NCBI GenBank assembly: GCA_016861045.1
Contig: BOKP01000001.1
Span: 933,529 to 997,528, forward strand
Direction: 5' to 3'
Length of the DNA stretch: 64,000 bases
Origin: Actinomycetes bacterium
GTDB lineage: Bacteria; Actinomycetota; Thermoleophilia; Solirubrobacterales; 70-9
The notes below the pieces were generated by a model. The model did no database searches. It worked only from the letters and a program-made list of their open reading frames with translations, and was not told the origin of the DNA. Position numbers and translations under genes: made by a program. Positions 40,195 through 62,140 of the stretch are shown in pieces (the stretch's first letter is position 1; each line of letters starts with the position of its first letter).

Positions 40195-40240
40195 GTTCAG
40201 CAAGTCGTACCGAGTTCGGCAGACTGAACTAGTCTTGCCA
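40195..40240. promoter_or_regulatory. inverted half-sites before the dihydropyrimidinase-like gene
   Basis: GTTCAG (40195-40200) and CTGAAC (40224-40229) form an inverted pair 23 bases apart. GGCAGACT...AGTCTTGCC (40218-40239) gives a second imperfect dyad just before the AAGGAG ribosome binding site. It is a possible operator but lacks the exact TTGAA-N5-TTCRA core. Confidence 0.35.
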
Positions 40241-40251
40241 AAGGAGAGCGA

Positions 40252-42533: not shown

Positions 42534-42534
42534 G

Positions 42535-44928: not shown

Positions 44929-44929
44929 C

Positions 44930-45607
44930 GTGCCTGCGACCGTCTCCGAGATGACGAGCGCAACCGCCGCCGAGGTCGCGGCGGTGGCCCGCCTGCTCGC
45001 CGCGGCCGGCCTCGTCGAGGCGTTCGGCCACGTCTCGGCCCGGATCGACGGCGGCGGCTTCGCGATCACCTCGACGGCGCCGCTCGGCCGGGCGACCGCG
45101 GAAGCCACGCTCGCCTGCGACGAGGCCGGGATGCCGCTCGGCGATGGCGCGGGGCTGCCGCTGGAGACGCCGCTTCACGCCGCGATCTACGCTGCTCGCG
45201 CCGATGTCGGCGCGATCTGCCGCACCCACTCGCCGGCGGCGGTCGCGGCCGGCGTCGCGGACGAGACGCCGCCGGTCGCCCACGGGCTCGGCGGCCTCTC
45301 CGGACGGGTCGCGCGATTCGGGGACCCGCAGCTCGTCACCGGCCGCGAGCGCGCGGCCGCCGCCGTGGCGGCGCTCGGCGCCGACGACTGCCTGCTGATC
45401 CGCGGCAACGGCGCCGTCGCCACCGGCGCCTCCCTCCCGGAGGCTGCAGTCCGGGCCTGGTATCTGGAGGAGCGCGCCCGGGTCTGGCGGGCCGGGCGGC
45501 TCGAGCTCTCCGCTGATGCGCTCGAGGAGCGTTCCAGCCACTACCCGGCCGAGGCCGATCGCGCCTGGAGCTGGCTGCGCTGGAGGTTCGGGGGGGAGGA
45601 GCGATGA
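44930..45607 (+). CDS. class II aldolase/adducin-domain protein lacking two zinc histidines
   Basis: A 225-residue protein with the aldolase class II fold: AFGHVSARIDGGGFAI, PLETPLHAAIYAARADVGAICRTHSPAAV, GLGGLSGRVARFGDP and CLLIRGNGAVATGASLPEA. In active members the zinc ligands are the two His of HxH (here RTH) and a His in the NHG-type turn (here GNG). Two of three are therefore replaced (Arg, Asn), so classic zinc-dependent aldolase activity is unlikely. It could be a decarboxylase-type, scaffolding or non-metal relative. It is placed between the two DUF1989 genes, overlapping the second by 4 bases. Confidence 0.82.
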   Translation: MPATVSEMTSATAAEVAAVARLLAAAGLVEAFGHVSARIDGGGFAITSTAPLGRATAEATLACDEAGMPLGDGAGLPLETPLHAAIYAARADVGAICRTHSPAAVAAGVADETPPVAHGLGGLSGRVARFGDPQLVTGRERAAAAVAALGADDCLLIRGNGAVATGASLPEAAVRAWYLEERARVWRAGRLELSADALEERSSHYPAEADRAWSWLRWRFGGEER

Positions 45608-46185
45608 CGGCCGCCACCGACGTCACGGTCGCTTCCGGCACCGGCTACGGCGTCGACCTCGCCGCCGGCGAGCAGATCAGGATCTCGACCCCGGACGGCG
45701 GCCAGGGCGGGGACTTCAGCTTCCTCGGCTTCGACCAGGCGCTGTCTCGCAACATCAACGGCTGGGAGCGCTTCGGGCGTCCCTGGCTCATCTTCAGCGC
45801 CGACCCGGGCACCCGCCTCTACGACGGCGAGGGCGAGCCCGTGTTCGAGGTCGGCGAGTGCACCGGCGACGGCCGCAACGACATCATGTACCCGGGCTGC
45901 TGGTCGGAGCTCTACGAGGACGGCCGCCCGGGCTGCCGCGACCTGATCGCCGACGCGCTCGGGATCGCGCGCGCGGAGATCACCGGGATGCTCTCGTTCT
46001 TCGTCAACGCCACGGTCGACACGACCGCCTACCGGGGCCTGCAGGAAGTCCGGATCGAGCCCGGCGATCACATCACCCTGCTGGCGCTGCGCGACGTCCG
46101 CGCCGCCGTCTCGGCCTGTCCCGACTCCGAGATCCCGGGCTGGAGGCCGGGTGACCTGCGGGTCGAGGTCGGAAGACCTTCCTGA
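45604..46185 (+). CDS. DUF1989 (urea carboxylase-associated) protein, shorter subunit
   Basis: A 193-residue paralogue of the gene at 44296. Seen: GYGVDLAAGEQIRISTPDGGQGGDFSFLGFDQ, NINGWERFGRPWLIFSADPGT, VGECTGDGRNDIMYPGCW, SFFVNATVDTTAYRGL, and VSACPDSEIPGW near the end. The pair likely forms one heteromeric enzyme, as with the CgdA/CgdB carboxyguanidine deiminase; the motifs differ enough that each probably has its own role. ATG overlaps the aldolase-like stop (ATGA), showing coupled translation. The transporter operon begins 30 bases later. Confidence 0.85.
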   Translation: MTAATDVTVASGTGYGVDLAAGEQIRISTPDGGQGGDFSFLGFDQALSRNINGWERFGRPWLIFSADPGTRLYDGEGEPVFEVGECTGDGRNDIMYPGCWSELYEDGRPGCRDLIADALGIARAEITGMLSFFVNATVDTTAYRGLQEVRIEPGDHITLLALRDVRAAVSACPDSEIPGWRPGDLRVEVGRPS

Positions 46186-46215: not shown

Positions 46216-47262
46216 GTGACTAGACGACGCAAACCGCACGGCTCCCGGTTCGGGGTGCTCGCCGTCCTGATGCTGGCGATCGGGGCCCTGGTCCTCGCCG
46301 CATGCGGCGGCGACGACTCGACCACCAGTGACAGTGCCGACTCGACGTCCGGGGGTGAGATGCAGGATGCGACGCTGGTCCTCGACTTCGTTCCGGGCCC
46401 GGTCCACGCCGGCATCTACGACGCGGTCGTCAACGGCTACTACGAGGACGAGGGGATCAATCTCGAGATCATCGAGCCGACCTCGACCGCGGACACGCTG
46501 AAGCTGATCGACGCCGGCAAGGCCAACTTCGGCATCGCCGACGGGATCGACGTCGCCACCCAGATCGCCGACGGCCGCGGCGCCAAGGGCATCATGGCGC
46601 TTGTCCAGCGGCCGCTGGGCGGGCTGATCACGCTCACCGAGTCGGGCTTCGACTCGCCGGCCGACCTCGACGGCAAGACCGTCGGCGTCACCGGCGTCCC
46701 CTCCGACGACGCGATCATGAACACGACGATCTCCGACGCGGGCGGCGATCCCGCCAGCGTCAACAAGGTGACGATCGGGTTCAACGGGGTCCAGAACCTC
46801 GAGAGCGGCAAGGTCGACGCCTTCACCGGGTTCATCCCCGCCGACGGCGTCCAGATCGACGTCGACGGGTTCCCGACGACGTCGTTCGCGCTCGACGAGT
46901 ACGGCGGGCCCAAGTACCCGGGCCTGGTCGTGTTCTCGACCGAGGACGCGATCAGCTCCGAGTCGGATCTGATGCAGGGCTTCGTGAGCGCCACGATCAG
47001 GGGCTACGAGGACGTCATCGCCGATCCGCAGGCCGGGCTCGACGCGTTGCTCGAGGAGAACCCGGCGATCCCGGAGAAGTTCGCCGAGGCGTCGCTTGAC
47101 GCGTACATGCCGCTGTTCGAGGCCGGCACCGACCAGTACGGGTCGTTCAACACCGACGATCTCGAGTCGCTGTCGACGTTCATGGTCGACAACGACCTCG
47201 CAACCGAGCCGATCGCCCCCGACCGGTACGCGACGAACGAGTTCGTCGAGGGGTCGGAATAG
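46216..47262 (+). CDS. ABC transporter substrate-binding lipoprotein (NMT1/THI5-like)
   Basis: A 348-residue lipoprotein: signal peptide with lipobox VLAAC, then a Ser/Asp/Thr linker, then an NMT1-type binding domain (LVLDFVPGPVHAGIYDAVVNGYY, GKANFGIADGIDVATQIA, DLDGKTVGVTGVPSDDAI, GFNGVQNLESGKVDAFTGFIP). Relatives bind thiamine precursors (hydroxymethylpyrimidine), riboflavin and alkanesulphonates, so a pyrimidine-like or heterocyclic ligand is plausible. AAGGAG lies 6 bases before GTG 46216. The ATPase and permease follow directly, forming a complete importer. Confidence 0.93.
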   Translation: MTRRRKPHGSRFGVLAVLMLAIGALVLAACGGDDSTTSDSADSTSGGEMQDATLVLDFVPGPVHAGIYDAVVNGYYEDEGINLEIIEPTSTADTLKLIDAGKANFGIADGIDVATQIADGRGAKGIMALVQRPLGGLITLTESGFDSPADLDGKTVGVTGVPSDDAIMNTTISDAGGDPASVNKVTIGFNGVQNLESGKVDAFTGFIPADGVQIDVDGFPTTSFALDEYGGPKYPGLVVFSTEDAISSESDLMQGFVSATIRGYEDVIADPQAGLDALLEENPAIPEKFAEASLDAYMPLFEAGTDQYGSFNTDDLESLSTFMVDNDLATEPIAPDRYATNEFVEGSE

Positions 47263-47266
47263 CGCG

Positions 47267-48073
47267 ATGCCGGCCACGACGGCACGTCTGCGGACCGAGG
47301 GTCTGACGAAGGCGTTCCCGGCGCGTTCCGGGGCCGGCGATCGGGTCAGCGCGCTCGAAGGGGTCGAGATGACGATCGACCCCGGCGAGTTCGTCTCGAT
47401 CGTCGGGCCGTCGGGGTGCGGCAAGTCGACGCTGTTCAACCTGTTGGCCGGGCTCGACCGGCCGTCGGGCGGGCGCATCCTGCTCGACGGCCGACCGGCC
47501 GACAACCTGCTCGGCGAGATCGGCTACATGCCGCAGGCCGACCTCTTGATGCCGTGGCGGACCGTGCTCGACAACACCGCGCTCGGCCTCCAGCTCAATG
47601 GCGTCAAGCGGGCCGAGGCGCGCGAGCGGGCGCGGGGGGAGTTCCAGCGCTTCGGGCTCGCCGGCTTCGAGGACGTCTGGCCCTCGCAGATCTCCGGCGG
47701 CATGCGCCAGCGCGCTGCGCTGCTGCGGACTTTCCTGGCCGGCCGCGAGGTGATGCTCCTCGACGAGCCCTTCGGTGCCCTCGACGCGCTCACCCGCCAG
47801 GAGATGCAGCAGTGGCTCCTGCGAATCTGGCAAGAGGACCGCAAGACGATCCTGTTCGTCACCCACGACGTCGAGGAGGCGCTGTTCCTCTCCGACCGGG
47901 TCTACGTGATGTCGGGCCGGCCCGGCCGGATCGAGCTCTGCGTCGAGGTCGAGCTCGAGCGCCCGCGCGAGCTCGAGCGGACGATGACCGCCCCCGAGTT
48001 CGCGGAGCTGAAGCTGAAGCTGATCGAGCCGCTGCGCCGGGCGTCGGCGGCCGCGCGCGCGGAGGACGGCTGA
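47267..48073 (+). CDS. ABC importer ATPase (TauB/SsuB/ThiZ type)
   Basis: A 268-residue ATPase with all motifs: Walker A VGPSGCGKSTLFNL, Q-loop YMPQADLLMPW, signature ISGGMRQRAAL, Walker B VMLLDEPFGALD, H-loop FVTHDVEEALFL. It energises the importer with the lipoprotein at 46216 and the permease at 48073. ATG 47267 was chosen because upstream codons overlap the binding-protein gene in another frame. The end overlaps the permease start (TGATG). Confidence 0.95.
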   Translation: MPATTARLRTEGLTKAFPARSGAGDRVSALEGVEMTIDPGEFVSIVGPSGCGKSTLFNLLAGLDRPSGGRILLDGRPADNLLGEIGYMPQADLLMPWRTVLDNTALGLQLNGVKRAEARERARGEFQRFGLAGFEDVWPSQISGGMRQRAALLRTFLAGREVMLLDEPFGALDALTRQEMQQWLLRIWQEDRKTILFVTHDVEEALFLSDRVYVMSGRPGRIELCVEVELERPRELERTMTAPEFAELKLKLIEPLRRASAAARAEDG

Positions 48074-48921
48074 TGGGCAACGGCGGGCGCCTCAGCCTCG
48101 ACTCGCGCGCGGCCCGGATCGCGGCGCCGGCGATCTTCGCCCTGCTCGTGCTCGCGATCTGGCAGCTCTACACGGTCGTCTCCGACGTCCCCGAGTCCTC
48201 GCTTCCGTCGCCGACGCAGATCGCCGCGGCCGGCTGGGAGAACCGCCAGCTCCTGCTCGACAACACGTGGGTCACGATCGAGGAGATCCTGATCGGGTTC
48301 GCGGCGGCGATCGTGCTCGGCGTCGTCCTGGCGATGCTGATCCGCTCCTCGCGCACGGTCGAGCGGGCGCTGTATCCGTGGCTCGTCGTCTCGCAGATGG
48401 TCCCGGTGCCGGCCGTCGCTCCGATCTTCGTGATCTGGACCGGCTTCGACCTGCGCCCGAAGATCATGGTCATCGCCCTCGTCGCGTTCTTCCCGATCGC
48501 CGTCAACACGATCGACGGGCTCCGCGCGGTCGACCCGCAGCTCCTGCGGCTGATGCGGACGCTGCGGGCATCGTTCTGGCAGCGGTTCCGCTACGCGCAG
48601 CTCCCGGCGGCGCTGCCGTTCGTCTTCAGCGGCCTCAAGGTCGCGGCCGCGCTCTCGGTCATCGGCGCGGTGTTCGGCGAGTGGGTGGGGGCCTCGGAGG
48701 GCCTTGGCTACCTGATCCTCGTCCTCAACAACGCGACCGACACAGCGACGATGTTCGCGACGATCTTCCTGCTGGCGCTGATCGGGATCTCGCTGTTCGG
48801 GCTCGTGATCCTGATCGAGCGGCTCCTGCTGCCCTGGTATCACGACGCGCGCAAGGAGAGCAGCGACGACGGCATCGCCGAGCCCGCCGACGACGCGGTC
48901 GAGATCGGGGGGCGGCTGTGA
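48073..48921 (+). CDS. ABC importer permease (TauC/SsuC/ThiX type)
   Basis: A 282-residue inner-membrane protein with about six spans and the EAA-loop-like sequence MRTLRASFWQRFRYAQLPAALPFVFSGLK. Other landmarks: ILIGFAAAIVLGVVLAMLI, PVPAVAPIFVIWTGFDLRPKI, FGEWVGASEGLGYLIL. It completes the NMT1-type importer. Its GTGA end overlaps the amidohydrolase at 48918, so transporter and enzyme are translationally coupled, which strengthens the idea that the imported compound is that enzyme's substrate. Confidence 0.95.
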   Translation: MGNGGRLSLDSRAARIAAPAIFALLVLAIWQLYTVVSDVPESSLPSPTQIAAAGWENRQLLLDNTWVTIEEILIGFAAAIVLGVVLAMLIRSSRTVERALYPWLVVSQMVPVPAVAPIFVIWTGFDLRPKIMVIALVAFFPIAVNTIDGLRAVDPQLLRLMRTLRASFWQRFRYAQLPAALPFVFSGLKVAAALSVIGAVFGEWVGASEGLGYLILVLNNATDTATMFATIFLLALIGISLFGLVILIERLLLPWYHDARKESSDDGIAEPADDAVEIGGRL

Positions 48922-50318
48922 GCGGCGCGAGCGCCACGATCGTCCGCGGCGCCTGGGTGCTGCCGATGGCCGCGGGCTCCGACCCGATCCGCGACGGGGC
49001 CGTCCTGCTCGGCGCCGACGGCGCGATCGCGGCGGTCGGGAGCTTCGCGGAGCTGAGCGACCGCGAGCCTGACGCGACCGTCGCCGGCGACGGCAACGGC
49101 ATCGTCATGCCGGGGATGGTCAACGCCCACACCCATCTGACCGAGTGCCTGATCCCGGGGATGGGGGAGGACGCCGTCCTCTACGAGTGGTTCCAGCGCG
49201 TCGTCAACCCCGTCGGCGAGCTGATCGTCCGCGACGAGGTCGCGCTCGGGACGCGCCTGAAGGCGGTCGAGATGCTGCGCAGCGGCATCACCACGGTCAA
49301 CGACATGTCCTGCCACCGCAACGTCGGGAGCCTGGCGACGCTCGGGGCCGTCGACGGGCTCGCCTGGGCCGGCCTCCGCGGGGTCGTCAGCTTCGGCGCC
49401 GAGGACATGTACGAGGGTGCGCCGGGGCCCGAGCCGTTCATGGCCGAGCACGAGGCGCTCGCGGATCGCACCGCGTCCGAGCCGCTGATCTCCTTCCGCT
49501 GCGGGGTCGGAACCGTCCTCGGCCTCAGCGACCAGCTCTTCGAGCGCACCGTGAGCGCCTGCCGCGAGCACGGCTGGGCGGTCCACACCCACCTCTCCGA
49601 GGTCCGCGAGGAGCTCACCGAGGGGCGGCTGCGCTGGGGTGGGACGACGATCGAGCGCTCGGGCCGCGCCGGGCTGCTCGACGCCGAGGTGATCGCCGCG
49701 CACTGCATCTGGTGCACCGAGCGCGACATCGGGCTGCTCGGCCGCCACGACGTCGCCGTCGCTCACAACCCGGTCGCCAACATGCTGCTCGGTAACGGCG
49801 TCTGCCCGGTCCCGCGGCTGCGCAGCGAGGGGATCACGATCGCGCTCGGCACCGACGGCGCCGCCTCCAACGACAACCAGGACATGTTCGGAGTCATCAA
49901 GACCGCGGGCCTGCTGCACAAGGTCAACACGATGGACCCGACCGTGATCGGGGCCCGCGAGGTGCTGGCGATGGCGACGATCGACGGCGCCCGGGCGCTC
50001 GGGATCGATGCCGAGGTCGGCTCGCTCGAGCCCGGCAAGCGCGCCGACGTGGTCCTGCTCGACGGCAACACCCCGGAGCTGGCGACGATTCACGATCCCT
50101 GGCAGCAGGTCGTCTACTGCGCGACCGCGCGCTGCGTCAGCGACGTCTGGGTCGACGGCGTGCGCCGGGTCGAGGGGGGCGAGGTGCCCGGCGTCGACCT
50201 GCCCGCGCTCGCGGCCGAGGTCCGCGAGGCCGGCGCCGATCTCGCCCGCCGCTCCGACCTCGGCTCCGAGTCGGTCTATGCCGGCGACGGCCGCGCCTTC
50301 GCCGGGGCCGGCGCCTGA
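48918..50318 (+). CDS. Atz/Trz-family amidohydrolase (deaminase/chlorohydrolase-like), 1
   Basis: A 466-residue enzyme of the guanine deaminase/triazine hydrolase type. Seen: MPGMVNAHTHLTECLIPG (HxH), VHTHLSEVREE (His), VIAAHCIWCTERDI (His), VAHNPVANMLLGNG and GTDGAASNDNQDMF with the catalytic Asp. All metal and catalytic residues are present. Relatives deaminate SAH/MTA, guanine, cytosine or s-triazines. The enzyme probably deaminates or hydrolyses the N-heterocycle taken up by the importer just upstream. GTG 48918 overlaps the permease stop by 4 bases. Confidence 0.9.
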   Translation: MSGASATIVRGAWVLPMAAGSDPIRDGAVLLGADGAIAAVGSFAELSDREPDATVAGDGNGIVMPGMVNAHTHLTECLIPGMGEDAVLYEWFQRVVNPVGELIVRDEVALGTRLKAVEMLRSGITTVNDMSCHRNVGSLATLGAVDGLAWAGLRGVVSFGAEDMYEGAPGPEPFMAEHEALADRTASEPLISFRCGVGTVLGLSDQLFERTVSACREHGWAVHTHLSEVREELTEGRLRWGGTTIERSGRAGLLDAEVIAAHCIWCTERDIGLLGRHDVAVAHNPVANMLLGNGVCPVPRLRSEGITIALGTDGAASNDNQDMFGVIKTAGLLHKVNTMDPTVIGAREVLAMATIDGARALGIDAEVGSLEPGKRADVVLLDGNTPELATIHDPWQQVVYCATARCVSDVWVDGVRRVEGGEVPGVDLPALAAEVREAGADLARRSDLGSESVYAGDGRAFAGAGA

Positions 50319-51955
50319 TGGCCGCCTGCGACGTCGTCGTCATCGGCGCCGGCCACAACGGACTCGCCTGCGGCAGCTATCTCGCCCGCGCCGGGCTCGA
50401 CACGATCGTGCTCGAGCAGGCGGCCGAGCCGGGGGGCTGCATCGTCACCGAGGAGCTTCCGAGCGGCGTCGGGCGGCTCGAGCTCGGCGCCTTCGAGCAC
50501 AGCGGCATCCGCGCCAGCGGCGTCGACGCCGACCTCGAGCTCAGCACCCGCTTCGGGCTCGAGTGGCGGCTCGTCGACGAGCTCGTCCTCGCCCCCTGCG
50601 ACGACGGCGTCGACCTCGCGATGCACAACTCGCTCGACCGCACCGTCGAGGGCTTCGCCGAGGTGCTCGGACGCGAGGAGGCCGAGCGCTACCGCGAGTT
50701 CGCGCGCTGGGCCGAGCGGGCGATGACCGTGCTCTCGCAGGCGAACAACGGGCCGCCGCCGACGATGCGGGAGCTGACGGCGATCGCCGAGCTGACGCTC
50801 GGCAGCCAGGGCGACCGGCTGATCCAGGCCCTGTACGCCTCCGCCTCCAACCTCTGCGCCTCCCACCTCGGCGACCCGCGCCTGCGCGGCCTGATGCTGC
50901 ACTGGGCCGCCCACTCCCAGCAGCCGCCCGACGATCCCGGGACGGCGGCGGGAGCGCTCATGCTCGCCGCCTTCCACGGAGCCCCCTCGGCCCGTCCCGC
51001 CGGCGGCTCGCGCGGGACCGTCGACGCGCTCGCCCGTTGCCTCGCCGGCCACGGCGGGGTGCTCCGCACCGGTGCCCCGGCGGAGCGGATCGAGCTCGCC
51101 GGCGGACGAGCGGTCGCGGTCCACGCCGGCGGCGAGCGGATCGCTGCGCGGCGCGCCGTCGTCTCGGCGATCGACGCCAAGCGGGTCTTCGGCGGCCTCG
51201 TGGCGGATGCCGACGTCCCCGCCGGCCTCGCGCGGGAGGTTGCGGCGATCCACGTCGGCCGCCGCAACGTCTCCGAGCTCAAGGTCGATGCGGTGATCGC
51301 GGGGCTCCCCGATCTCGGTGCGCCGGCCGGCTTCGAGCGGGCGCTGATGCTCTCGCCGAACACCGATGCCGACATCGAGGCGGCATTCGCGCGGATCCGG
51401 CTCGGCGAGCTGCCGGAGCGGCCGCCGATGATGATCGGGTTCCCCTCGACCCGCGAGCCGGGATGGACGCGCGACCCCGATCACGAGGTCGTCTGGCTCT
51501 CCACGTTCGTCCCCTGGGAGCCCGCGGCCGGCCCCTGGGACGAGGGATCGCTCGAGGCTGCCGCCGACTGGGCCTGGGCCGCGGCCGAGCGCGCCCTGCG
51601 GGTCGATATGGAGCCGGTCGAGCGGCTCGTCACCGGTCCCGGCGACTGGGTCCGCCGCAACGGCAATCCCTACGCCTGCCCCAACCACATCGAGATGTCG
51701 CTCGACCAGCTCCTCGGGATGCGCCCCTCGCCGTCGCTCTCACGCTACGCGACCCCCGTGCCCGGCCTCTACCTCAGCGGCGCCGGCTCCCATCCGGGCG
51801 GCGGCGTCACCGGGATGCCGGGCCGGAACGCCGCCGCGGTCGTCCTCCGGGATCTCGGCCTGCGCCGCAAGGGCAGGCTCGAGCGTTGGCGCGGCCAGGC
51901 GGCGATGCTGCGCGACGCCGCCCGCGCCGCCCGCTCGCTTCGGAGGGCGGCGTGA
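50318..51955 (+). CDS. FAD-dependent oxidoreductase (phytoene desaturase/PYROXD-like)
   Basis: A 545-residue flavoprotein: N-terminal dinucleotide motif VVVIGAGHNGLACGSYLARAG, then VLEQAAEPGGCIVTEE, GGSRGTVDALARCLAGHGG in the middle, and the C-terminal FAD contact GLYLSGAGSHPGGGVTGMPGRNAA. It belongs to the phytoene dehydrogenase-like group that oxidises C-C or C-N single bonds. In this cluster it may desaturate or aromatise a ring intermediate; this is inference. The start overlaps the previous stop by one base (TGATG), and the end overlaps the methyltransferase (GTGA). Confidence 0.9.
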   Translation: MAACDVVVIGAGHNGLACGSYLARAGLDTIVLEQAAEPGGCIVTEELPSGVGRLELGAFEHSGIRASGVDADLELSTRFGLEWRLVDELVLAPCDDGVDLAMHNSLDRTVEGFAEVLGREEAERYREFARWAERAMTVLSQANNGPPPTMRELTAIAELTLGSQGDRLIQALYASASNLCASHLGDPRLRGLMLHWAAHSQQPPDDPGTAAGALMLAAFHGAPSARPAGGSRGTVDALARCLAGHGGVLRTGAPAERIELAGGRAVAVHAGGERIAARRAVVSAIDAKRVFGGLVADADVPAGLAREVAAIHVGRRNVSELKVDAVIAGLPDLGAPAGFERALMLSPNTDADIEAAFARIRLGELPERPPMMIGFPSTREPGWTRDPDHEVVWLSTFVPWEPAAGPWDEGSLEAAADWAWAAAERALRVDMEPVERLVTGPGDWVRRNGNPYACPNHIEMSLDQLLGMRPSPSLSRYATPVPGLYLSGAGSHPGGGVTGMPGRNAAAVVLRDLGLRRKGRLERWRGQAAMLRDAARAARSLRRAA

Positions 51956-52956
51956 GCCCGGCGGTCGGCGAGACGCCGGCGGAGCCGCTCGAGCTCCTGA
52001 CCGGCTACCAGGCGGCGGCGATCCTCGGAACCGCGGTCGAGCTCGGGGTGCCCGCGGAGCTCGCCGCCGGCCCGCGAACTGCGGCGGAGGTGGCGGCCGC
52101 GCTCGGCACCGACGAGCGCGCCACCGGGTACCTGCTCGGCGCTCTCGTCGTCCTCGGCCTCGCCCGGGTCGAGGACGCGGAGCGCGGCTTCGGCCTGACC
52201 GGACGCGGCGCCGAGCTCGTCGACGGCACGTCGGGGTCGATCGCCGAGATCGTCCGCAAGGAGTGGTTCTTCTACCGCGTCTGGGCCGAGCTGCCGAAGG
52301 CGATCGGCGACGGCCACGCGCGGATCGCGCCGTGGCGCGAGCGGCTCCGCGACGACCCGGCGCAGTCGCTCGCCTTCCTGCGGGCGCTCGATGACCTCGC
52401 CGCCCGCTTCGGCGCCGGCCTGCCCGAGCTCGCCGGGCTCGAGCGCGGCGGCCGGCTGCTCGACGTCGGCGGCGGCGCCGGCTCCCACTCCGCCTATCTC
52501 GAGGCGGCGGTGCCGGGGCTCGAGGCGACGGTGCTCGACCTCCCCGCCGCCGAGGAAGTGCTGCGCGAGCGCCACCCGGAGCTGGGCTTCGTCGCCGGCG
52601 ACTTCGACGAGGAGCGGTTCGGAAGGCCCTCCGGGGAGTTGTGGGACCACGTCCTGATCGCCAACCTCCTTCACGACCACCCGCCGCAGCGCTGCCGCGA
52701 GCTGATCGCCGAGGCCGCAGGCCTGCTGGCGCCGGGCGGGACCCTGCTGATCTACGACTGGGTCCTCGGCGAGGACCGGGTGACGCCTCCCGACGTGGCC
52801 GTCTTCGCGCTGATGATGCTGGTCGAGAACGAGGGCGGCGGCACCTGGACCGAGGGCGAGATCCGCTCCTGGGTCGAGGCGGCGGGGCTTCGGGCCGAGC
52901 CGCTGCGACGCGACCCCGGCCCGATCGCGGTCCTGCGGGCGACGCGCCCCGGCTGA
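51952..52956 (+). CDS. SAM-dependent O-methyltransferase (acetylserotonin/tetracenomycin type)
   Basis: A 334-residue two-domain methyltransferase. Residues ~10-95 form the dimerisation/winged helix domain (TGYQAAAILGTAVELGVPAELA). The catalytic part has the SAM motif GRLLDVGGGAGSHSAYL, ATVLDLPAAEEV, VAGDFDEERFG, and LIANLLHDHPPQRCRELI with the catalytic-base His (LLHDH). An O-methyltransferase is unexpected in a breakdown cluster; it may protect or tag an intermediate, or act as a demethylating partner of another scheme. Last gene before the operator at 53036. Confidence 0.9.
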   Translation: MSPAVGETPAEPLELLTGYQAAAILGTAVELGVPAELAAGPRTAAEVAAALGTDERATGYLLGALVVLGLARVEDAERGFGLTGRGAELVDGTSGSIAEIVRKEWFFYRVWAELPKAIGDGHARIAPWRERLRDDPAQSLAFLRALDDLAARFGAGLPELAGLERGGRLLDVGGGAGSHSAYLEAAVPGLEATVLDLPAAEEVLRERHPELGFVAGDFDEERFGRPSGELWDHVLIANLLHDHPPQRCRELIAEAAGLLAPGGTLLIYDWVLGEDRVTPPDVAVFALMMLVENEGGGTWTEGEIRSWVEAAGLRAEPLRRDPGPIAVLRATRPG

Positions 52957-53117: not shown

Positions 53118-54626
53118 GTGGTGTCCGCGCCCGTGAGCGCGTCCACGGTTCCCGACCTCCTGATCGCCGGCTGCGACGTGCTGCCCGGGCCCGGCGAAGA
53201 GCGTCGAGCCGTCGACGTCGAGATCGGAGGAGGCCGGATCAGCTCGATCGTGGACGCCGGCTCCGCAGGTGACGGCAGCGCGGAGAGGATCGACGGCACC
53301 GGGCTCCTCGCGATCCCCGGCCTCGTCAACGCCCACACCCATTCCCCCGAGAACTGCCTTCGCGGCATCGGCGAGGGTCTGGCGCTGGAGCCCTGGCTGC
53401 TGAGGATGTTCGGCAGCTCCGGCCCCTACACGCCCCAGGACCACTACGACTGCGCTCTCGCCGGGGCGGTGGAGATGCTCGAGCTCGGCGTCACCGGCGT
53501 TGTCGACCACCTGTGGATGACGCCGCCCAGCGTCGAGGCCGTCGACGCGGCGATGCGCGCCTACCGGGACATCGGCATTCGCGCGACCGTGGCGCCGCTG
53601 ATGGACGACCACGACTACACCGAGGACTTCGGCGCGGCGATCGGTGCCGACCTCGGGATCGGCGGGATGTCGCATCACGTCGCGCTGCCTCCGGCCGAGG
53701 AGCTGGTCGCGCAGCTCCGCGAGAGCCTCGCTTCATGGCATGGCGCCGAGGGGGACAGGCTCCGGATCCTCGCCGGCCCGGGCGGTGTGCAATGGGCCTC
53801 GGAGGAGCTCCTCGCCGGGCTCGCGGCGGCGGCACGCGAGCACGGGGCGGGTATCCACATCCACCTGCTCGAGACGACGTTGCAGGATCGCGTCTGCCGC
53901 CATCGCTTCGGCTGCAGCGCCGTCGAGGCGCTCGACCGGCTCGGCATCCTCGCTCCCGATTGCTCGCTTCCGCACTCGGTCTGGACGAGCGACGGCGATG
54001 TCGAGTTGATCGCGGCAAGCGGAGCGATCCCGGTTCACAACCCGGCTGCGAACCTCCGCCTCGGCAGCGGCCGGGCACCGATCAGGGCGCTGCTGGAGGC
54101 GGGGGCCGTCGTGGCGCTGGGTACCGACGGCTCAGCCTCATCCGACAACCAGAACCTCTGGGAGGCGCTGAGACTCGCCTCGCTGATCCACAACGACGCC
54201 GCGGCGGGCCGCTGGCTGACCAGCTCCGCGACTCTCGCGATGGCGACTTCGGGAGGCGCTGCCGTCATCGGCCGGAACGCGGAGCTCGGCCGGCTGGCCG
54301 TGGGCGCGATCGCCGATCTGGCTCTGATCGACCGGCGCGGGGACGGTGTCGCCGGCTCCGTCGACACGACCGCGGCGCTGGCGCTCTCGGAATCGGGTCG
54401 CGGCGTCCGTCATGTGATCGTCGACGGTCGCCCGGTCGTCCGTGACGGCCGGTGCGTCACCGTCGATCGCGATGCCGCACGCGCCCGGCTGGCCGAGCAG
54501 GCCGCCCGCCGGTCCCCGACAGCTTCACGGCCCCCCGACAAGACCCGGAGGGCGATGGAGGAGATGATGCGCTTCCGCGGAACGGCGGCGCGCTTGACAG
54601 ACAACGAGGAAAGGGAGACGACATGA
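53118..54626 (+). CDS. Atz/Trz-family amidohydrolase (deaminase-like), 2
   Basis: A 502-residue paralogous-type amidohydrolase. Seen: IPGLVNAHTHSPENCLRGIGEG (HxH), IHIHLLETTLQD (His), CSLPHSVWTSDGD (His), PVHNPAANLRLGSG and GTDGSASSDNQNLWE with the catalytic Asp. Compared with the gene at 48918 it has a C-terminal ~50-residue basic extension. It is the first gene behind the 27 bp operator. Relatives include guanine deaminase, cytosine deaminase and triazine hydrolases. GTG 53118 was chosen because GAAGGGAAAG lies just upstream; GTG 53121 is an alternative. Its end overlaps the BMP lipoprotein start (ATGA). Confidence 0.88.
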   Translation: MVSAPVSASTVPDLLIAGCDVLPGPGEERRAVDVEIGGGRISSIVDAGSAGDGSAERIDGTGLLAIPGLVNAHTHSPENCLRGIGEGLALEPWLLRMFGSSGPYTPQDHYDCALAGAVEMLELGVTGVVDHLWMTPPSVEAVDAAMRAYRDIGIRATVAPLMDDHDYTEDFGAAIGADLGIGGMSHHVALPPAEELVAQLRESLASWHGAEGDRLRILAGPGGVQWASEELLAGLAAAAREHGAGIHIHLLETTLQDRVCRHRFGCSAVEALDRLGILAPDCSLPHSVWTSDGDVELIAASGAIPVHNPAANLRLGSGRAPIRALLEAGAVVALGTDGSASSDNQNLWEALRLASLIHNDAAAGRWLTSSATLAMATSGGAAVIGRNAELGRLAVGAIADLALIDRRGDGVAGSVDTTAALALSESGRGVRHVIVDGRPVVRDGRCVTVDRDAARARLAEQAARRSPTASRPPDKTRRAMEEMMRFRGTAARLTDNEERETT

Positions 54627-55648
54627 CGGTTCGACGCTCATCAGCGCTCGCCGCGCTCGTCGTGGCGCTGGCAATGACCGTTGCCGCGTGCGGCGACAGC
54701 GGCGATGACACGAGCGGGGGCGATTCCAGCGGCCTGAAGGTCGCGATGGTCCTGCCCGGCGCGATCAACGACAAGGGCTTCAACCAGACCGGCTACGAGG
54801 GGCTCCAGCAATGCGAGGACGCCGGCGCGACGACCACCTACAAGGAGATGGTGCCCGTTCCGGAGTTCGAGCAGACCTACGAGACGTTCTCGCAGGACAA
54901 CGATCTCGTGATCGGCCACGGCTTCGAGTTCGGCGAGATCGCCGCCAAGGTGGCGCCGGACTTCCCAGACGTGGACTACGTCGTCACCTCGAACCCGCTG
55001 AAGCCCGAGCAGGACAACATCGAGCACCTGATGCCCAACTCGACCCAGGGTGCGTATCTCGCGGGCGTCGTCGCCGGTCAGGCGACCGAGACGAACAAGC
55101 TCGGCGGGATCTTCGGATTCGACTTCCCGGTGCTGATGGCGCAGGCGAAGGCGTTCGAGGCCGGTGCGAAGTCGGTCAATCCCGACATCACGTTCGAGGC
55201 CGTGTACCTCGGCACGTTCGACGACGTCGCCAAGGGCAAGGAGGCCGCGCAGAGCATGGCCGCCGACGGCATCGATGTCATCTACCACATCGCCGACGCC
55301 GCTGGCATCGGCGTCATCAACGGCGCCACCGAGGAGGGGATCTACGTGATCGGCTGGGGGGCCGACCAGAACGAGGTCGCCCCGGAGACGGTGATCGCGA
55401 GCCAGATCGTCGACCAGGCGAAGATGATCGGCCTGGCCTGCCAGGCTGCCGTCGACGGTGAGTTCGAGGGTGGCGGCCTGGTGGTCGACGGCCTCCAGTC
55501 CGGGGTCATCGACCTGAGCCCGGTGTACAACCTGCCTGAGGACGTTCAGGCCAAGGTCGACGAGGTCAAGCAGCAGATCATCGACGGCGAGGTCGAAGTG
55601 CCCTCGGTCGGTGGCGGGATCCCCGGCTCCGGAGAGGGCAGCGGCTGA
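54623..55648 (+). CDS. BMP-family ABC substrate-binding lipoprotein (nucleoside-type)
   Basis: A 341-residue lipoprotein: signal peptide with lipobox TVAAC, an Asp/Ser/Gly linker, then a basic-membrane-protein domain (KVAMVLPGAINDKGFNQTGYEGL split over the first strand and helix, DLVIGHGFEFGEIAAKVAPDFPDV, IEHLMPNSTQGAYLAGVVAG, YVIGWGADQNEVAPETVIAS). Characterised relatives (PnrA, BmpDEFG, NupN) bind purine or pyrimidine nucleosides. The ligand here may be a nucleoside or base handled by the adjacent deaminase. ATG 54623 overlaps the amidohydrolase stop; GGGAG lies upstream. Confidence 0.93.
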   Translation: MTVRRSSALAALVVALAMTVAACGDSGDDTSGGDSSGLKVAMVLPGAINDKGFNQTGYEGLQQCEDAGATTTYKEMVPVPEFEQTYETFSQDNDLVIGHGFEFGEIAAKVAPDFPDVDYVVTSNPLKPEQDNIEHLMPNSTQGAYLAGVVAGQATETNKLGGIFGFDFPVLMAQAKAFEAGAKSVNPDITFEAVYLGTFDDVAKGKEAAQSMAADGIDVIYHIADAAGIGVINGATEEGIYVIGWGADQNEVAPETVIASQIVDQAKMIGLACQAAVDGEFEGGGLVVDGLQSGVIDLSPVYNLPEDVQAKVDEVKQQIIDGEVEVPSVGGGIPGSGEGSG

Positions 55649-55686: not shown

Positions 55687-57177
55687 TTGCCCGCGCCGAC
55701 TCGGATGAGCGGCATCGTCAAGGAGTTCGCCAATGTCACGGCCTGCGACGATGTGTCGCTGGAGGTCGCAGGCGGCGAGGTCCACGCGCTGCTCGGAGAG
55801 AACGGCGCGGGCAAGACGACCCTCATGAACATCCTCTACGGGCTGGTCCGCCCCGACCGGGGCGTGATCGAGTTCGAGGGTCGGCGGATCGACCCGCGGA
55901 CGCCCGGCGACGCGCTCACCGCCGGCATCGGGATGGTCCATCAGCACCCGCTCGTGGTCGGGCCGATGAGCGTCGCCGAGAATCTCTTCCTCGGCGGGCT
56001 GGGCGATGGAACCCAGGATGGCGCTCGGGCGGCGATCGCACCGATCACGAAGACGATTCCGCTCGACGTGGACCTCGCCGCACGCGTCGACTCCCTGCCG
56101 ATGTCGCAGCGCCAGCGGATCGAGATCGTCCGCTGCCTGGCACGGGACGTCCGCCTGCTGATCCTGGATGAGCCGACGGCGGTCCTGACGCCCGAGGAGG
56201 TCGAGCAGCTGTTCATCGAGATCGAGCGCCTGCGCGGCTCGGGTCGGAGCGTGATCTTCATCTCTCACAAGCTCTCCGAGGTGATGCGGATCGCCGATCG
56301 CGTGACCGTGTTGCGGGGCGGCCGCAATGTCGGAACGCACGAGGCCGGCGCGATGACGGCGGCGAAGCTGGCGGCGGCGATGGTCGGGGCGGCAACCGGC
56401 GATGTCACGCGGAGCGACGGCTCGAAGCCGGGGCGTGTCCGCCTCGAGGTCGATGCCTGCACGATCACCGGCAGGTTCGGCCCCCCCGAGCTCGAACGCT
56501 GCACGCTGGGCGTGCGATCCGGGGAGATCATCGGCATCGCCGGGGTGGAAGGCAACGGACAGCGGCCGCTTGCCGAGCTGCTCTTCGGCCTCCGGCGGGC
56601 GACGAGCGGCACGGTGCGCTTCGACGGTCGCGCGCTGCCGCCGGTCGGACGGTGGCAGGCGAGCAAGGTCCCGATCGCCCGGATTCCCGAGGACCGGCGC
56701 CATCACGGCCTCCTCCTGGGCGCGCCGCTGTGGCAGAACCTCATGCTCGGCCCCCAGCCGCCGCGCTTCGGGCCGGTTCTCGCTCGACGGGCAGTTCTCG
56801 ATTGGGCGCGAACGACCCTCGAGGAGTACGGGGTGAGGCCGGCGGATCCGACGACCCTCGCCGCGAACCTCTCCGGCGGCAACCAGCAGAAGGTCGTGAT
56901 CGCCCGTGAGCTTGGCGGCGCGCCCGAGGCGGTGGTCGCGGTGAACCCGACCCGCGGCCTCGACATCCGCGCTCAGCAGGAGGTCCAGGAGCGGCTCCTG
57001 CAAGCACGCGGCCGAGGGGCCGCCGTGCTGCTCATATCGACCGACCTCGATGAGATCTTCGCGCTCTCGGACTCGATCGCCGTTCTCTACGGGGGTCGGA
57101 TCACCGGCCCCTTCGCCGCGGCCGAGATCGATCGCGATCGCGCCGGGATGCTGATGGGCGGGGTCGATGGGGGGTAG
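55687..57177 (+). CDS. BMP-type ABC importer ATPase (two fused ATPase domains)
   Basis: A 496-residue double ATPase (YufO/NupO/RbsA type). Domain 1: Walker A LLGENGAGKTTLMNI, VHQHPLVVGPMS, signature replaced by LPMSQRQRIEIVR, Walker B LLILDEPTAVLTPEE, H-loop ISHKLSEV. Domain 2: no P-loop GKT/GKS is seen (IIGIAGVEGNGQRPLAEL instead), signature LSGGNQQKVVIAREL, and Walker B region VVAVNPTRGLDI where the catalytic Glu is Pro/Asn. Such asymmetry is normal in this family. The start is TTG 55687, with the AGGAGGTGAT site. It energises the BMP importer. Confidence 0.92.
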   Translation: MPAPTRMSGIVKEFANVTACDDVSLEVAGGEVHALLGENGAGKTTLMNILYGLVRPDRGVIEFEGRRIDPRTPGDALTAGIGMVHQHPLVVGPMSVAENLFLGGLGDGTQDGARAAIAPITKTIPLDVDLAARVDSLPMSQRQRIEIVRCLARDVRLLILDEPTAVLTPEEVEQLFIEIERLRGSGRSVIFISHKLSEVMRIADRVTVLRGGRNVGTHEAGAMTAAKLAAAMVGAATGDVTRSDGSKPGRVRLEVDACTITGRFGPPELERCTLGVRSGEIIGIAGVEGNGQRPLAELLFGLRRATSGTVRFDGRALPPVGRWQASKVPIARIPEDRRHHGLLLGAPLWQNLMLGPQPPRFGPVLARRAVLDWARTTLEEYGVRPADPTTLAANLSGGNQQKVVIARELGGAPEAVVAVNPTRGLDIRAQQEVQERLLQARGRGAAVLLISTDLDEIFALSDSIAVLYGGRITGPFAAAEIDRDRAGMLMGGVDGG

Positions 57178-58258
57178 CTTCGGTTTTGGTGAAGGCGTGG
57201 GGGCGCTGATCGCCCGCACCTCGATCGCGCTTGCCGGTGCGGCGCTGGTCGGTGCGCTCGTCCTGACCGCGGCCGGCCTCGACCTGGCGACCACGTGGGA
57301 GGCGATCTACGAGGGCGCGATCGGCGACGAGTTGGCGATCCGCAACTCGCTGCTCGAGGCCGTCCCGATCACGATCACGGCGATCGGGGTTGCGATCGCG
57401 TTCCGTGCCGGCCTGTTCAACCTCGGAGGCCAGGGCCAGATCTACGTCGGCGCCCTCGCGGCGGTGCTCGTGGCCCTGTACCTGCACGCACCTGGAGCTG
57501 TCGTGATCGCGATTGCGCTGGTTGCGTCGATGCTCGCGGCCGGCGCCTGGGGAGGGATCGCCGGCGTCCTTCGGGCCCGGCTCGGGCTCTCGGAGATCAT
57601 CACGACGATCATGCTCAACTTCATCGCGTTCTGGCTGGTCAGCTATCTGGTCAGGGGACCGATCCAGGACCCCGAGGGAGACGGATACCCGTACACGCGA
57701 GAGATCCCCGAGCCGGTTCAGCTCGGGCTGATCGGCGACGTGGTCCCGGTCGGCGCGGTCTTGATGCTCGCGGTCGGCGTGGCCGCGTGGCTGCTGATGG
57801 ACCGCTCCCGGTTCGGCCTCAAGATCAAGGCGCTGGGAGAGGGTGAAGCCGCCAGCCGCTTCGCGGGCATCGCCGTCCCCCGGGTGACGATCGTCGCGAT
57901 GGTGATCGCCGGCGCCCTCGGCGGGCTCGGCGGTACCGCGAGCCTGCTCGGCGTCCAGCACCGACTCAGTGACTTCTTCAGTCCGGGATGGGGCTTCGAC
58001 GCGGTCGCGACTGCGCTGATCGGGCGCGGTTCACCGATCGGGACGCTCGTTGCGGGGGTCTTCATCGGCTTCCTGCGCAGCGGCATTCAGACCGCGGAGG
58101 GGACAGCGGAGGTGCCCGCGGCGCTCGCCCAGATCCTGCTCGGAGTCGTCGTCCTCTTCCTGATAATCGCCAATGCCGACCTCGTGGTCAGGCTGGGGCG
58201 CAGGCTGCGCCAGCGGCTCGCGCGTGGAAGGGGGGAGGCGCTTGAGCGACCTGCTTGA
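57167..58258 (+). CDS. BMP-type ABC importer permease 1
   Basis: A 363-residue inner-membrane permease of the NupP/YufP/BmpF-like family with about 8-10 spans. Seen: NSLLEAVPITITAIGVAIAFRAGLFNLGGQGQIYVGAL split over helix and loop, LGLSEIITTIMLNFIAFWLVSYL, and GLGGTASLLGVQHRLSDFFSPGWGFDAVATALIGRGSP in the C-terminal part. ATG 57167 overlaps the ATPase gene by 11 bases. With permease 2 it makes the two-permease set of nucleoside-type BMP importers. Confidence 0.93.
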   Translation: MGGSFGFGEGVGALIARTSIALAGAALVGALVLTAAGLDLATTWEAIYEGAIGDELAIRNSLLEAVPITITAIGVAIAFRAGLFNLGGQGQIYVGALAAVLVALYLHAPGAVVIAIALVASMLAAGAWGGIAGVLRARLGLSEIITTIMLNFIAFWLVSYLVRGPIQDPEGDGYPYTREIPEPVQLGLIGDVVPVGAVLMLAVGVAAWLLMDRSRFGLKIKALGEGEAASRFAGIAVPRVTIVAMVIAGALGGLGGTASLLGVQHRLSDFFSPGWGFDAVATALIGRGSPIGTLVAGVFIGFLRSGIQTAEGTAEVPAALAQILLGVVVLFLIIANADLVVRLGRRLRQRLARGRGEALERPA

Positions 58259-59174
58259 CATCTTCACCTCGGCGGCGCTCTACGCGGCGGCCATCCGGCT
58301 CGCGCTGCCGGTCTTCTTCGCCGCGCTCGGCGAGGTCTTCGCGGAGCGCTCGGGGTTGGTGAACGTGGGCCTCGAAGGGATGATGCTCATGGCGGCCTTC
58401 GGTGGCGTCCTCGGATCCGATCTGACCGGCTCGCCGATGATGGGGCTGCTCCTCGGGCTTGTCTTCGCGCTCGTGATCGCGGCGGTTCAGGCTTTCGTGG
58501 CGGTCAACCTCGGCGGCGATCAGATCGTAAGCGGGATCGCGCTCAACATCACCGCCCTCGGGCTGACCGCCTACCTGTCCCGGGCGATCTGGGAGGGTGG
58601 AAACGTCCCGCAGGTGAACGGCTTTCCGACGCTCGATCCGCCGATCCTCTCCGACATCCCGATCCTCGGTCCGATCCTGTTCGAGCAGAGCCTGTTCGTC
58701 TACATCGCCGCGGTCGCGGTCGCGGTCTCGTGGTGGGCGCTGACGCGCACGGCATGGGGGCTGCGCCTGCGCGCCTGCGGTGAAGATCCGCGAGCATCCG
58801 ACAGCCTCGGGATCGACGTGATCCGGGTGCGATGGCAGACGATGCTGATCTGCGGCGCGCTCGCGGGGCTCGGTGGCGCGTTCCTCTCGCTCGGCTCCCT
58901 CTTCACGTTCAGTGACGCCATGACCGGAGGGCGCGGGTTCATCGCGCTCGCGGTCGTGATCATCGCGAGCTGGTCTCCCGTCAAGGCAGTCTGGGCGTCG
59001 TTGCTGTTCAGCCTCTGCGAGGCCTTCGCCTTGCGCGTTCAGACCAGCGACATCGAGTTGCCGGCTGAATTGATGCTCGCGCTCCCCTACGTCGTCACGC
59101 TGATCGTCTACGCGGTGATCGTCGGGCGGACTGCCATGCCCGCGGCGCTCGGGAGGACCTACGTTCGAGAATGA
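58242..59174 (+). CDS. BMP-type ABC importer permease 2
   Basis: A 310-residue permease of the NupQ/YufQ-like family. Seen: ALGEVFAERSGLVNVGLEGMMLMAAFGG, FVAVNLGGDQIVSGIALNITALGLTAYLSR in two helices, RACGEDPRASDSLGIDVIRVRW, and IALAVVIIASWSPVKAVWAS. The start is TTG 58242, matching the family N-terminus (SDLLDIFTSAA); GTG 58224 is an alternative. It overlaps permease 1 by ~17 bases. The last residues (AALGRTYVRE) are followed 10 bases later by the nitrilase-like gene. Confidence 0.92.
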   Translation: MSDLLDIFTSAALYAAAIRLALPVFFAALGEVFAERSGLVNVGLEGMMLMAAFGGVLGSDLTGSPMMGLLLGLVFALVIAAVQAFVAVNLGGDQIVSGIALNITALGLTAYLSRAIWEGGNVPQVNGFPTLDPPILSDIPILGPILFEQSLFVYIAAVAVAVSWWALTRTAWGLRLRACGEDPRASDSLGIDVIRVRWQTMLICGALAGLGGAFLSLGSLFTFSDAMTGGRGFIALAVVIIASWSPVKAVWASLLFSLCEAFALRVQTSDIELPAELMLALPYVVTLIVYAVIVGRTAMPAALGRTYVRE

Positions 59175-59184: not shown

Positions 59185-60063
59185 ATGAGCAGTCGCCCTG
59201 ACGGGCTGAGAATGGCGGTGGCCCAGCCGCGCGCCCGGGAAACGGAGGACGAGCGCGTGAAGGTGGACGACGCGGTCGCGACGATCCTCGAGGCCGGACG
59301 ACGCGGCGTTGAGCTTCTCGCCTTTCCCGAGGCGTACCCCGGTCCGATCCGCGCCGGGCTCGGCCACGATGCGACGCCCGCGATGGCCGCGGCCGCTGCC
59401 GAGGCAGTCTGCGCGGTCTGCTGGAGCCGGATCGAGCGAGGCGACGACGGCTTCTATAGGACCGTCGCCTACGTGCATGATCGTGACGGGACGCTGGCAT
59501 ACCGCTACGAGCGCAGCCATCCCGCCACCGGTGACGTCCACCCGGTTCTGTCCGGGGTTCCGATGGCACCGGGAGCCGAGCTGGCCGTCTTCGACCTCCG
59601 GGGGCTGCGGATCGGCATCCTCATCTGCTCGGAGCTCTGGATCCCCGAGATCGCCCGTTCGCTGGCCGTCCGCGGCGCCGAGGTCCTGCTCGCCCCCGCC
59701 GGCGGGGCCTTTCACCGCGTTGCGCCGAACTGGCAGCTGATCGCTCGCGCGCGGGCGATCGAGAACCAGTGTCATCTGGGTCTCACGCAGTCGCTGTTCG
59801 GGAACGAGCGCGGCTCCGCGTTGATAGCCGGCCCCGAAGCGGTCCTCGCGGCGTCGGAGGAGCCGGGGCTGGTCGACGCCGACGCCGATCTCGAGCGAGC
59901 TCGATGGCTGCGCTCGGTCGATGATTCGATGCGGGAGCCGAAGCCGTTCGACTCGCTTCCGGGGCTGATACGAGCGCGGAGGCCGGACCTCTATCGGGTG
60001 CTTGCCGAGCCGCGAGAAGGTCTCTATGACTACGAGGCGGCGGCTCGATCGGGGGCGGGATGA
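59185..60063 (+). CDS. nitrilase-superfamily C-N hydrolase with altered catalytic lysine
   Basis: A 292-residue carbon-nitrogen hydrolase. Seen: catalytic Glu in [11 protein letters not shown], the substrate loop [16 protein letters not shown] where the family lysine (Y-R-K-x-H) is Arg, and catalytic Cys in [17 protein letters not shown]. The family needs a Glu-Lys-Cys triad, so the Arg may lower or change activity. Alternatively it is an amidase relative with another base, or the alignment is off by two (RYER). It follows the BMP permeases by 10 bases and overlaps the HDAC-like gene by 4 (ATGA). The final ~20 residues ([15 protein letters not shown]) are flexible. Confidence 0.8.
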
Positions 60064-61193
60064 CCGGTCGCGCGTCGCGCCGGACCGGCTTCGTGTGGAA
60101 CGAGGCCTACATGTGGCACACGACGGGAATGGGCGCCGCGTTCCTTCCCGCGGGCGGTCCCCTCGAGCCCGAGGAGCACATCGAGCGACCGGCGCCGAAG
60201 CGCCGCCTGCGGAACCTGCTCGAGCTCAGCGGTGTCCTCGAGGAGCTGGTCACGATCCCCTCGCGTCCGGCGTCCGACGCCGAGCTGGAGCGCGTTCACC
60301 ATGCCGACCACGTCGCGCTCGTCGAGAGCGTCAGCGCCGCGGGCGGCGGCGAGGTCGGCGAGGAGGCGCCGATCGGCCCCGGCGGAGCCGCCGTCGCGAG
60401 GCTTGCGGCGGGCGGGTGCATCGCGGCGGTCGAGGCGGTCGTCGGTGGTGGCGTCGAGAATGCGTTCGCCCTGGTCCGCCCGCCGGGCCACCACGCCGGG
60501 CCGGCCGGCGCCTACGGGTTCTGCGTCTACTCGAACGTAGCGATCGCCGCCGCCCACGCGCGCGCGGCGCTCGGCATCGAACGCGTCGCGATCCTCGATT
60601 GGGACGCCCACCACGGCAACGGGACCGAGCAGGCGTTCTGGAGCGATTCCTCGGTGCTGACGATCTCGATCCACCAAGACGGAGCCTTTCCGCATGGCGG
60701 TGGCGGGGTCGAGATGGTCGGCGGCGACGATGCCCGGGGCACGAACCTGAACGTGCCGCTGCCCCCCGGGTCGGGAGTCGGCGCCTACCTCGCCGCGGTT
60801 GACCGCGTTGTGCTTCCCGCCCTGCACACCCACCGACCCGGCCTCGTGCTCGTCGCCTGCGGCTTCGACCCCTCGCCGATGGATCCGCTCGCAAGGATGA
60901 TGGTCCACAGCGGCGGCTTCCGTGCGATGACAGCGGCGGTGAGAGCGGCGGCCGGAGAGCTCTGCGGGGGGCGGCTCGTCCTCAGCCAGGAGGGGGGCTA
61001 CGCGTCGGCGTACGTGCCGTTCTGCGGGCTCGCGGTCGTCGAGGAGCTCGCGGGTGTCGATTCGGGCGTCGGCGATCCGTTCCTCGCCGGGTACGAGGGC
61101 TTTCCCTACCAGGATCTGCAACCCCACCAGGATCGGGCGATCGCCGCGGCGGAAGCCAACCTCGGCCTGCTGACCGCGGCGGTGGGCGAATGA
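60060..61193 (+). CDS. histone deacetylase-family (acetylpolyamine-type) amidohydrolase
   Basis: A 377-residue zinc deacetylase. Seen: [18 protein letters not shown] at the start, [25 protein letters not shown] with the charge-relay His pair, [17 protein letters not shown] (Asp and His zinc ligands), [32 protein letters not shown] (Asp ligand), and [13 protein letters not shown] with the catalytic Tyr. All catalytic residues are intact. Bacterial relatives act on acetylpolyamines or N-acyl intermediates; in this cluster an N-formyl/acyl amide product is a plausible substrate. ATG overlaps the upstream stop and its end overlaps the next gene. Confidence 0.9.
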
Positions 61194-62140
61194 GTCGCGC
61201 GCAGCTCCTCACCGCCGCACGCGCGAAGCCGGTAGCGCCCTACACGCTCGACGAGCGGCTGACCTTCTTCTGCCCGCAGGAGAACGTCGAGGCTCTCGAG
61301 ACCGAGCTCGTGCAACGGTTCCTGGCCTGGGCGCGGGACGACTACGAGCCCGCCGCCGGCGAGGAGCCACGGGTGCTGCTGATGGTCCCCTGCCAGAAGA
61401 CGAAGCCGTACACGCTCTCGGACGAGCATGTCGCGATCAACTCGCGCCTGCTCGCGGAGGGCTTCGAGCCCGTCGGCCCGGGCGATCCGCCGGACGGTCT
61501 CGCGAGCGACCTCGATCCCGGCCTGCTCTCGAACGCCCCGCTCGTCGGCCGCGGCCTGCGGATCGATCGGGTCGTGATCTCCGAGCCGTTCGCCTACGTT
61601 CCCTATGAGTCGATCTATCACTGGCAGGGCGAGCTCAGCCCGTGTGGCCGCTACGACGACCCGGGCCTGTTCGAGGAGCGCGGGATCGTGCCGCGCTGGC
61701 GGGCCGATTGCACGGTCGCCGGTGGCCGCTGGGGGGACAACGAGAAAGCCGCCTACGTGGAGATGCACAACCGGATGGCGGAGCAGCTTCACGCCGTCAT
61801 CAGCCGGCTCCGCGACCGCTACCTGGCGGTGATCGGTTACGTGGCTCCGACGCTGACACATCGCACCTTCCTCGCGGACGGCGGCGAGCGCCGCCGCTCG
61901 GGGGTTCCGGCGAGTCGCTCGGTCGGCGGCGATGAGCGGGTGCTGGTCGGTGTCAACGACCTCGAGCCCGGGCTCGTCGAGATCGTGCCGGATGGCCGCC
62001 AGCTGACCGGTCTGCGGGGGGTCCTGGGCGAGCGGTTGCCCGCTGATCTGCTCGAGCGCCCCGAGTGTCTCGACCTGCTCGTCGCCACGCTTCGGGCCGC
62101 AGCCGATCGAGCGGACCCGCCGGACGCGGACAGCCCGTAG
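61190..62140 (+). CDS. protein with the archaeosine synthase (ArcS)-type PCx3KPYx2Sx2H motif
   Basis: A 316-residue bacterial protein whose residues 67-80 read [14 protein letters not shown]. This matches exactly the signature PCx3KPYx2Sx2H described for archaeal ArcS, the enzyme that modifies the nitrile of preQ0 in tRNA. The DUF5591-like region spans ~60-240, with [20 protein letters not shown] and DVV-type strands around [17 protein letters not shown]; no PUA or TGT domain is visible. It is the last gene of the cluster and overlaps the HDAC-like gene by 4 bases. A role in deazapurine or nitrile/amidine chemistry is suggested by motif and context; function unproven. Confidence 0.8.

Follow-up and report, generated by a model that had tools for sequence, protein, structure and literature searches.

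What a protein that carries the signature of archaeosine synthase (ArcS) might be doing at the end of a bacterial catabolic cluster is the question raised by the locus analyzed here, which lies in a window (the whole stretch of DNA analyzed) of 64,000 nucleotides and whose features are listed in Table 1. A first-pass annotation had pointed out that residues 67-80 of a 316-aa protein fit PCx3KPYx2Sx2H at every fixed position, a pattern that, following that annotation and general knowledge, we take to be the ArcS signature. A motif scan confirms the exact fit and finds no second copy in any of the six reading frames of the window; given the composition of the protein, chance would produce about 2.6e-5 matches per proteome of ~850,000 residues. 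The profile search proposed in the same annotation yields a match to Pfam DUF5591 (PF17884) with 30.7 bits, above the gathering score of 26, that covers only the first 43 of the 150 profile positions. Over the same stretch, the NCBIfam ArcS model NF040592 gives a weak local match (20.1 bits versus an equivalog cut-off of 440). A literature search returned no papers naming DUF5591.

To place the protein structurally, two AlphaFold2 models from proteins that are 47% identical were used (pLDDT of 79 and 81, pTM of 0.82 and 0.83), the alignment behind both being shallow, with eight homologues only. Structural alignment, carried out as a re-comparison of the candidates supplied by Foldseek, singles out AF0587 of Archaeoglobus fulgidus (2q07) as the one solved structure in good agreement with both models, with Z 11.8, rmsd 3.0 and 23% identity over 137 residues for model 1, and Z 11.5, rmsd 2.9 and 25% identity over 138 residues for model 2. 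The runners-up reach Z 5.5 and Z 3.7, respectively, and the uracil-DNA-glycosylase-type folds present at Z 4-5 in the list for model 1 were set aside as too weak for use. Foldseek alone returned nothing at E <= 0.001, and a profile was required on the sequence side, where a single-sequence search of the PDB with the 316-aa protein gave no match. When compared with all PDB sequences, the profile of the bacterial proteins has one match up to E 10, which is again AF0587 (E 0.0032), and the bacterial signature falls on AF0587's own PCTARKPYLTSRTH. Because the two models and this independent sequence search agree, the fold is assigned to that of AF0587 despite the null result of Foldseek. The first-pass annotation had held that a match to an unrelated fold would reveal the motif as a coincidence; instead, both models match a protein that itself bears the signature. 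AF0587, for which no function is given, differs from the bacterial protein in that only 137-138 residues of its 306-aa chain are aligned and in that a conserved ...WRxDxT...WGDxE segment of the bacterial proteins is not seen in it, and its structure presumably also contains a PUA part.

Remote homology extends beyond this single structure. In a profile-profile comparison, the bacterial set aligns over 122 columns (probability 94%, E 1.4e-7) with a set made up of two haloarchaeal plasmid proteins, in which DUF5591 follows a TGT domain, and two Sulfolobus virus proteins that contain DUF5591 only. The joint alignment of haloarchaeal, viral and bacterial sequences shows L64, C68, K72, P73, Y74, H80, S131, V137, P138 and Y155 to be invariant and P67, S77, L87 and D156 to be almost invariant; P267 does not vary either, but lies in a region where the alignment is doubtful. 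Hence, besides the signature, the 316-aa protein displays a second shared block formed by S131-E132-P133...V137-P138 and Y155-D156, and it has in common with ArcS (NF040592, NF053620) a DUF5591 core with both the signature and the VP / YD block. Extra conserved stretches are present in the bacterial proteins, notably ...WRxDxT...WGDxE (about residues 155-185), and these are mostly absent from the aligned archaeal and viral members. Scans of genome collections recovered seven homologues with 41-57% identity to the window protein, six of them in Actinomycetota (loci L001, L002, L003, G090, G111 and G172) and the seventh, which scores 34.5 bits with Pfam DUF5591, on the Rhizobium plasmid CP021373. 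All of them keep C68, K72, P73, Y74, E79 and H80, and the signature departs from its consensus only through the replacement by Ala of P67 in L003 and of S77 in L011; the loss of Cys, Lys or His in close homologues, named beforehand as an outcome that would speak against the motif, was thus seen in none of those found. Taken together, the Pfam, profile and fold evidence rules out a chance motif, and the 316-aa protein is a true DUF5591 (ArcS-core) homologue.

With regard to domain architecture, the bacterial protein departs clearly from ArcS. DUF5591 is its sole Pfam match, so the reported absence of TGT and PUA domains holds, and this loss of the TGT-like N-terminal and PUA C-terminal domains is accompanied by a bacterial host, a catabolic operon and a genome that lacks RaSEA. 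The stand-alone architecture itself was correctly recognized, but it is not unique, since the proteins of the Sulfolobus viruses STSV1 (ORF19) and STSV2 also have DUF5591 as their sole Pfam match, with the full signature. These differ from the bacterial protein in length (185-187 aa), in their viral context and in the lack of the bacterial insertions, and their genes (L023:1399-1956 and L024:1345-1908) are annotated as hypothetical. Novelty resides, therefore, in the bacterial catabolic context and in the added segments. The haloarchaeal plasmid proteins of Natrinema and Haladaptatus (L021:974-2977 and L022:1019-2983) likewise contain DUF5591 with the signature, but fused behind a TGT domain. 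In Natrinema the fusion gene is followed by a DEAD/DEAH helicase, and the two plasmid loci are perhaps DNA-modification systems.

Since phage homologues of ArcS are known in DNA modification (PMC6884629), the homology with ArcS might indicate that an archaeosine-type enzyme acquired by the bacterium modifies tRNA or DNA. This appears extremely improbable, because Pfam detects in the protein neither TGT or PUA nor any other domain that binds nucleic acids, the DUF5591 gene always lies within a catabolic cluster, there is no phage match and the genome, which is 97% complete, shows no RaSEA, no QueA and no convincing QueC: RaSEA (TIGR01210) has no match in it, with control archaea positive, QueA is absent, and the QueC model yields partial matches only (22.9 and 19.8 bits, covering 54-60 of 210 positions, one of them nominally above the cut-off). 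The missing domains and the missing RaSEA rule out archaeosine biosynthesis in particular. The genome does encode one TGT (L020, G000:C2:112035-113162) and, given the absence of QueA and of a convincing QueC, direct salvage of queuine would fit this gene content. A phage origin of the DUF5591 gene was also considered and rejected: tblastn against 50,697 phage records and a search of viral contigs were both negative, and the fold comparison with viral proteins gave nothing at E <= 0.001.

The DUF5591 gene closes an add-on module (53133-62140) in which a deaminase-like amidohydrolase is followed by a four-gene importer of the BMP type, a CN_hydrolase and an HDAC-like hydrolase (Table 1). The amidohydrolases, the nitrilase-like protein and the nucleoside-type importer described by the first-pass annotation are therefore as claimed. 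The nitrilase-like neighbor does belong to the CN_hydrolase (nitrilase) superfamily, but it provides no argument for a nitrile substrate, because motif reading shows that Glu and Cys are kept with an Arg at the position expected for the catalytic Lys, an exchange conserved in five loci. The G090 locus presents a shortened version of the module and the G172 locus nearly all of its genes in a different order. On the Rhizobium plasmid, the DUF5591 gene is accompanied by two amidohydrolase genes and an HDAC-like gene, together with other genes for N-heterocycles. The HDAC-like gene of the Rhizobium sp. ACO-34A plasmid (L015:25678), which is missing in the PLSDB gene table, is 55% identical to the one in the window (60060-61193) and lies 4.7 kb from the DUF5591 gene.

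Table 1. Features of the core catabolic island and of the add-on module in the window.
Feature	Position	Strand	Remarks
Aldehyde dehydrogenase, IclR regulator, dihydropyrimidinase-like, isochorismatase-family hydrolase, DUF1185 (AA_synth)	37967..43131	+	
Amidohydrolase (enamidase-like by eye), DUF1989, class II aldolase, second DUF1989	43133..46185	+	
NMT1/THI5-type ABC importer (binding protein, ATPase, permease)	46255..48921	+	
TRZ/ATZ-type amidohydrolase	48918..50318	+	
FAD oxidoreductase (50318-51955) and O-methyltransferase-like protein (51952-52956)	50318..52956	+	
Amidohydrolase nearest 8-oxoguanine deaminase	53133..54626	+	below equivalog cut-off
BMP/PnrA-like substrate-binding lipoprotein (PF02608)	54623..55648	+	
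BMP-type importer ATPase	55705..57177	+	
BMP-type importer permease A (PF02653)	57167..58258	+	
BMP-type importer permease B (PF02653)	58242..59174	+	
CN_hydrolase (nitrilase superfamily)	59212..60063	+	start 59185 or 59212
HDAC-superfamily hydrolase (PF00850)	60060..61193	+	
DUF5591 (ArcS-core) protein	61190..62140	+	316 aa, ATG; signature residues 67-80 (Cys68, Lys72, His80)

The close association of the HDAC-like and DUF5591 genes, the stop of the former overlapping the start of the latter by 4 bp in the window, L001 and L002, might reflect a functional coupling. Members of the HDAC family deacylate polyamines and the side chains of lysine. ArcS, in turn, transfers lysine to preQ0 (PMC11298593), and the DUF5591 protein could have kept such a lysine- or amine-transfer activity, with the coupled hydrolase subsequently removing the amine or its acyl adduct. 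We regard this as very unlikely, however, because the HDAC-like gene is directly 5' of the DUF5591 gene in only 4 of 8 loci (it is not adjacent in L003, G090 and G172) and homologues of it are common in the order of the window genome in the absence of DUF5591.

Upstream, the module borders on a conserved core island (37967-52956) of ~15 genes. Taking the isochorismatase as a marker (E <= 1e-140), the island is detected in 19 of the 151 genomes of the order, 14 of which lack DUF5591, and the gene tables of further loci also reveal the island, or most of it, without this gene. Conversely, all five DUF5591 carriers among the 151 genomes are found within the 19 that harbor the marker (Fisher p 1.9e-5, ignoring genome kinship). 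As DUF5591 is confined, among these 151 genomes, to those with the marker and the island also occurs alone, the module appears to be an entry branch leading into the core island. In the other samples, the gene is present in 2 of 396 genomes from across the phylum and in 1 of 27 in the order of G172, a thin distribution that suggests spread by transfer. Two further features of the island were observed. The dihydropyrimidinase-like protein (40258-41760) has E-A-H (DTEAHPGC or DSEAHPGC) at the H-x-H metal site of hydantoinases, a variant that is kept in all five copies examined (window, L001, L002, L011 and L013). The class II aldolase is flanked by two different DUF1989 proteins (44296-46185); carboxyguanidine deiminase has been described as a DUF1989 heterocomplex (PMC11271267).

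Amidohydrolases, DUF1989 proteins, the dihydropyrimidinase-like protein and an amidase of the isochorismatase family dominate the setting, and this composition can be read as a sign that the substrate of the DUF5591 protein is a common base of the purine or pyrimidine type, or a ring-opened product thereof, in which the enzyme would hydrolyze an amide, an amidine or a ring C-N bond after having lost the nitrile specificity of ArcS. An adenosine deaminase annotated near the Rhizobium homologue, together with adenosine-deaminase-like and purine-phosphorylase-like proteins recognized by eye near the G090 homologue, points in the same direction. Nonetheless, the whole signature has been kept even though the chemistry would differ, and known purine and pyrimidine pathways present no nameable gap for such an enzyme, so that this reading, while possible, seems doubtful to us. 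On account of the hydrolase set of the island, we also considered the route by which clostridia degrade xanthine, through ureidoimidazole carboxylate, aminoimidazole, imidazolone and formiminoglycine, but obtained no specific support for it.

The explanation that we favor, and to which we give about even chances, is that the 316-aa protein represents a tRNA-independent bacterial descendant of the ArcS DUF5591 core that probably acts on a free, imported nucleobase- or nucleoside-like molecule. ArcS acts on the preQ0 nucleoside and 5'-monophosphate without tRNA (PMC11298593); since the DUF5591 domain can thus dispense with tRNA, a soluble substrate is plausible. Catalysis, the roles of the residues and the substrate class of the DUF5591 protein are what we infer from here on. 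The BMP-type importer would bring in a nucleobase- or nucleoside-like compound, the base of which would occupy the pocket of the DUF5591 core. Cys68 might then attack the electrophilic carbon of a nitrile, an amidine or a ring C=N to form a covalent thioimidate, with Lys72 and His80 acting as binding or acid-base residues, and water, ammonia or an amine could set the product free. This product would subsequently be processed by the deaminase-like, CN-hydrolase and HDAC-like partners and handed over to the core island for ring opening. The thioimidate chemistry of Cys68 is proposed by likeness to QueF/QueF-L (PMC5485725), the fold of which is different from that of the DUF5591 protein, and no role for the signature Cys in ArcS catalysis was found in the accessible literature.

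Within this general scheme, nitrile or 7-deazapurine chemistry is possible. A more specific proposal is that the enzyme acts on preQ0 or another 7-substituted 7-deazapurine, as base or nucleoside, converting the nitrile to an amide, acid or amidine as a catabolic entry step. The core and signature are those of ArcS, which works on preQ0 nucleotides, the importer belongs to the nucleoside-binding BMP family and is encoded beside an 8-oxoguanine-deaminase-like partner, and a TGT without QueA or a convincing QueC is consistent with the use of external 7-deazapurines. On the other hand, the module contains no queuosine or preQ0 gene, no Rfam riboswitch was detected (none at E <= 1 in the window stretch and none at the gathering score in six related loci), and the proposal has no precedent, 7-deazapurine catabolism being absent from the results of our literature search. 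On balance we consider it unlikely. An extension of the same idea, which we consider quite unlikely, would make the module a pathway for the breakdown of 7-deazapurines, the first of its kind, with the ArcS core processing a small-molecule nitrile at the entry step; the compounds degraded could be preQ0, bases derived from queuine, or antibiotic bases, for example toyocamycin.

Returning to the tRNA-independent descendant of the ArcS core, the locus suggests that ArcS-core chemistry, so far known from the modification of tRNA and probably also of viral DNA, has been put to new use on a small molecule in free form within a catabolic cluster for N-containing rings in a soil-type bacterium. The compact 316-aa bacterial version, which retains every signature residue, would offer an easier system in which to address the chemistry of this domain, and the operon around it hints at a soluble substrate. 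Furthermore, the DUF5591 gene marks an uncharacterized catabolic island, the core of which is found in 19 of the 151 sampled genomes of the order, and the class of its substrate is now testable.
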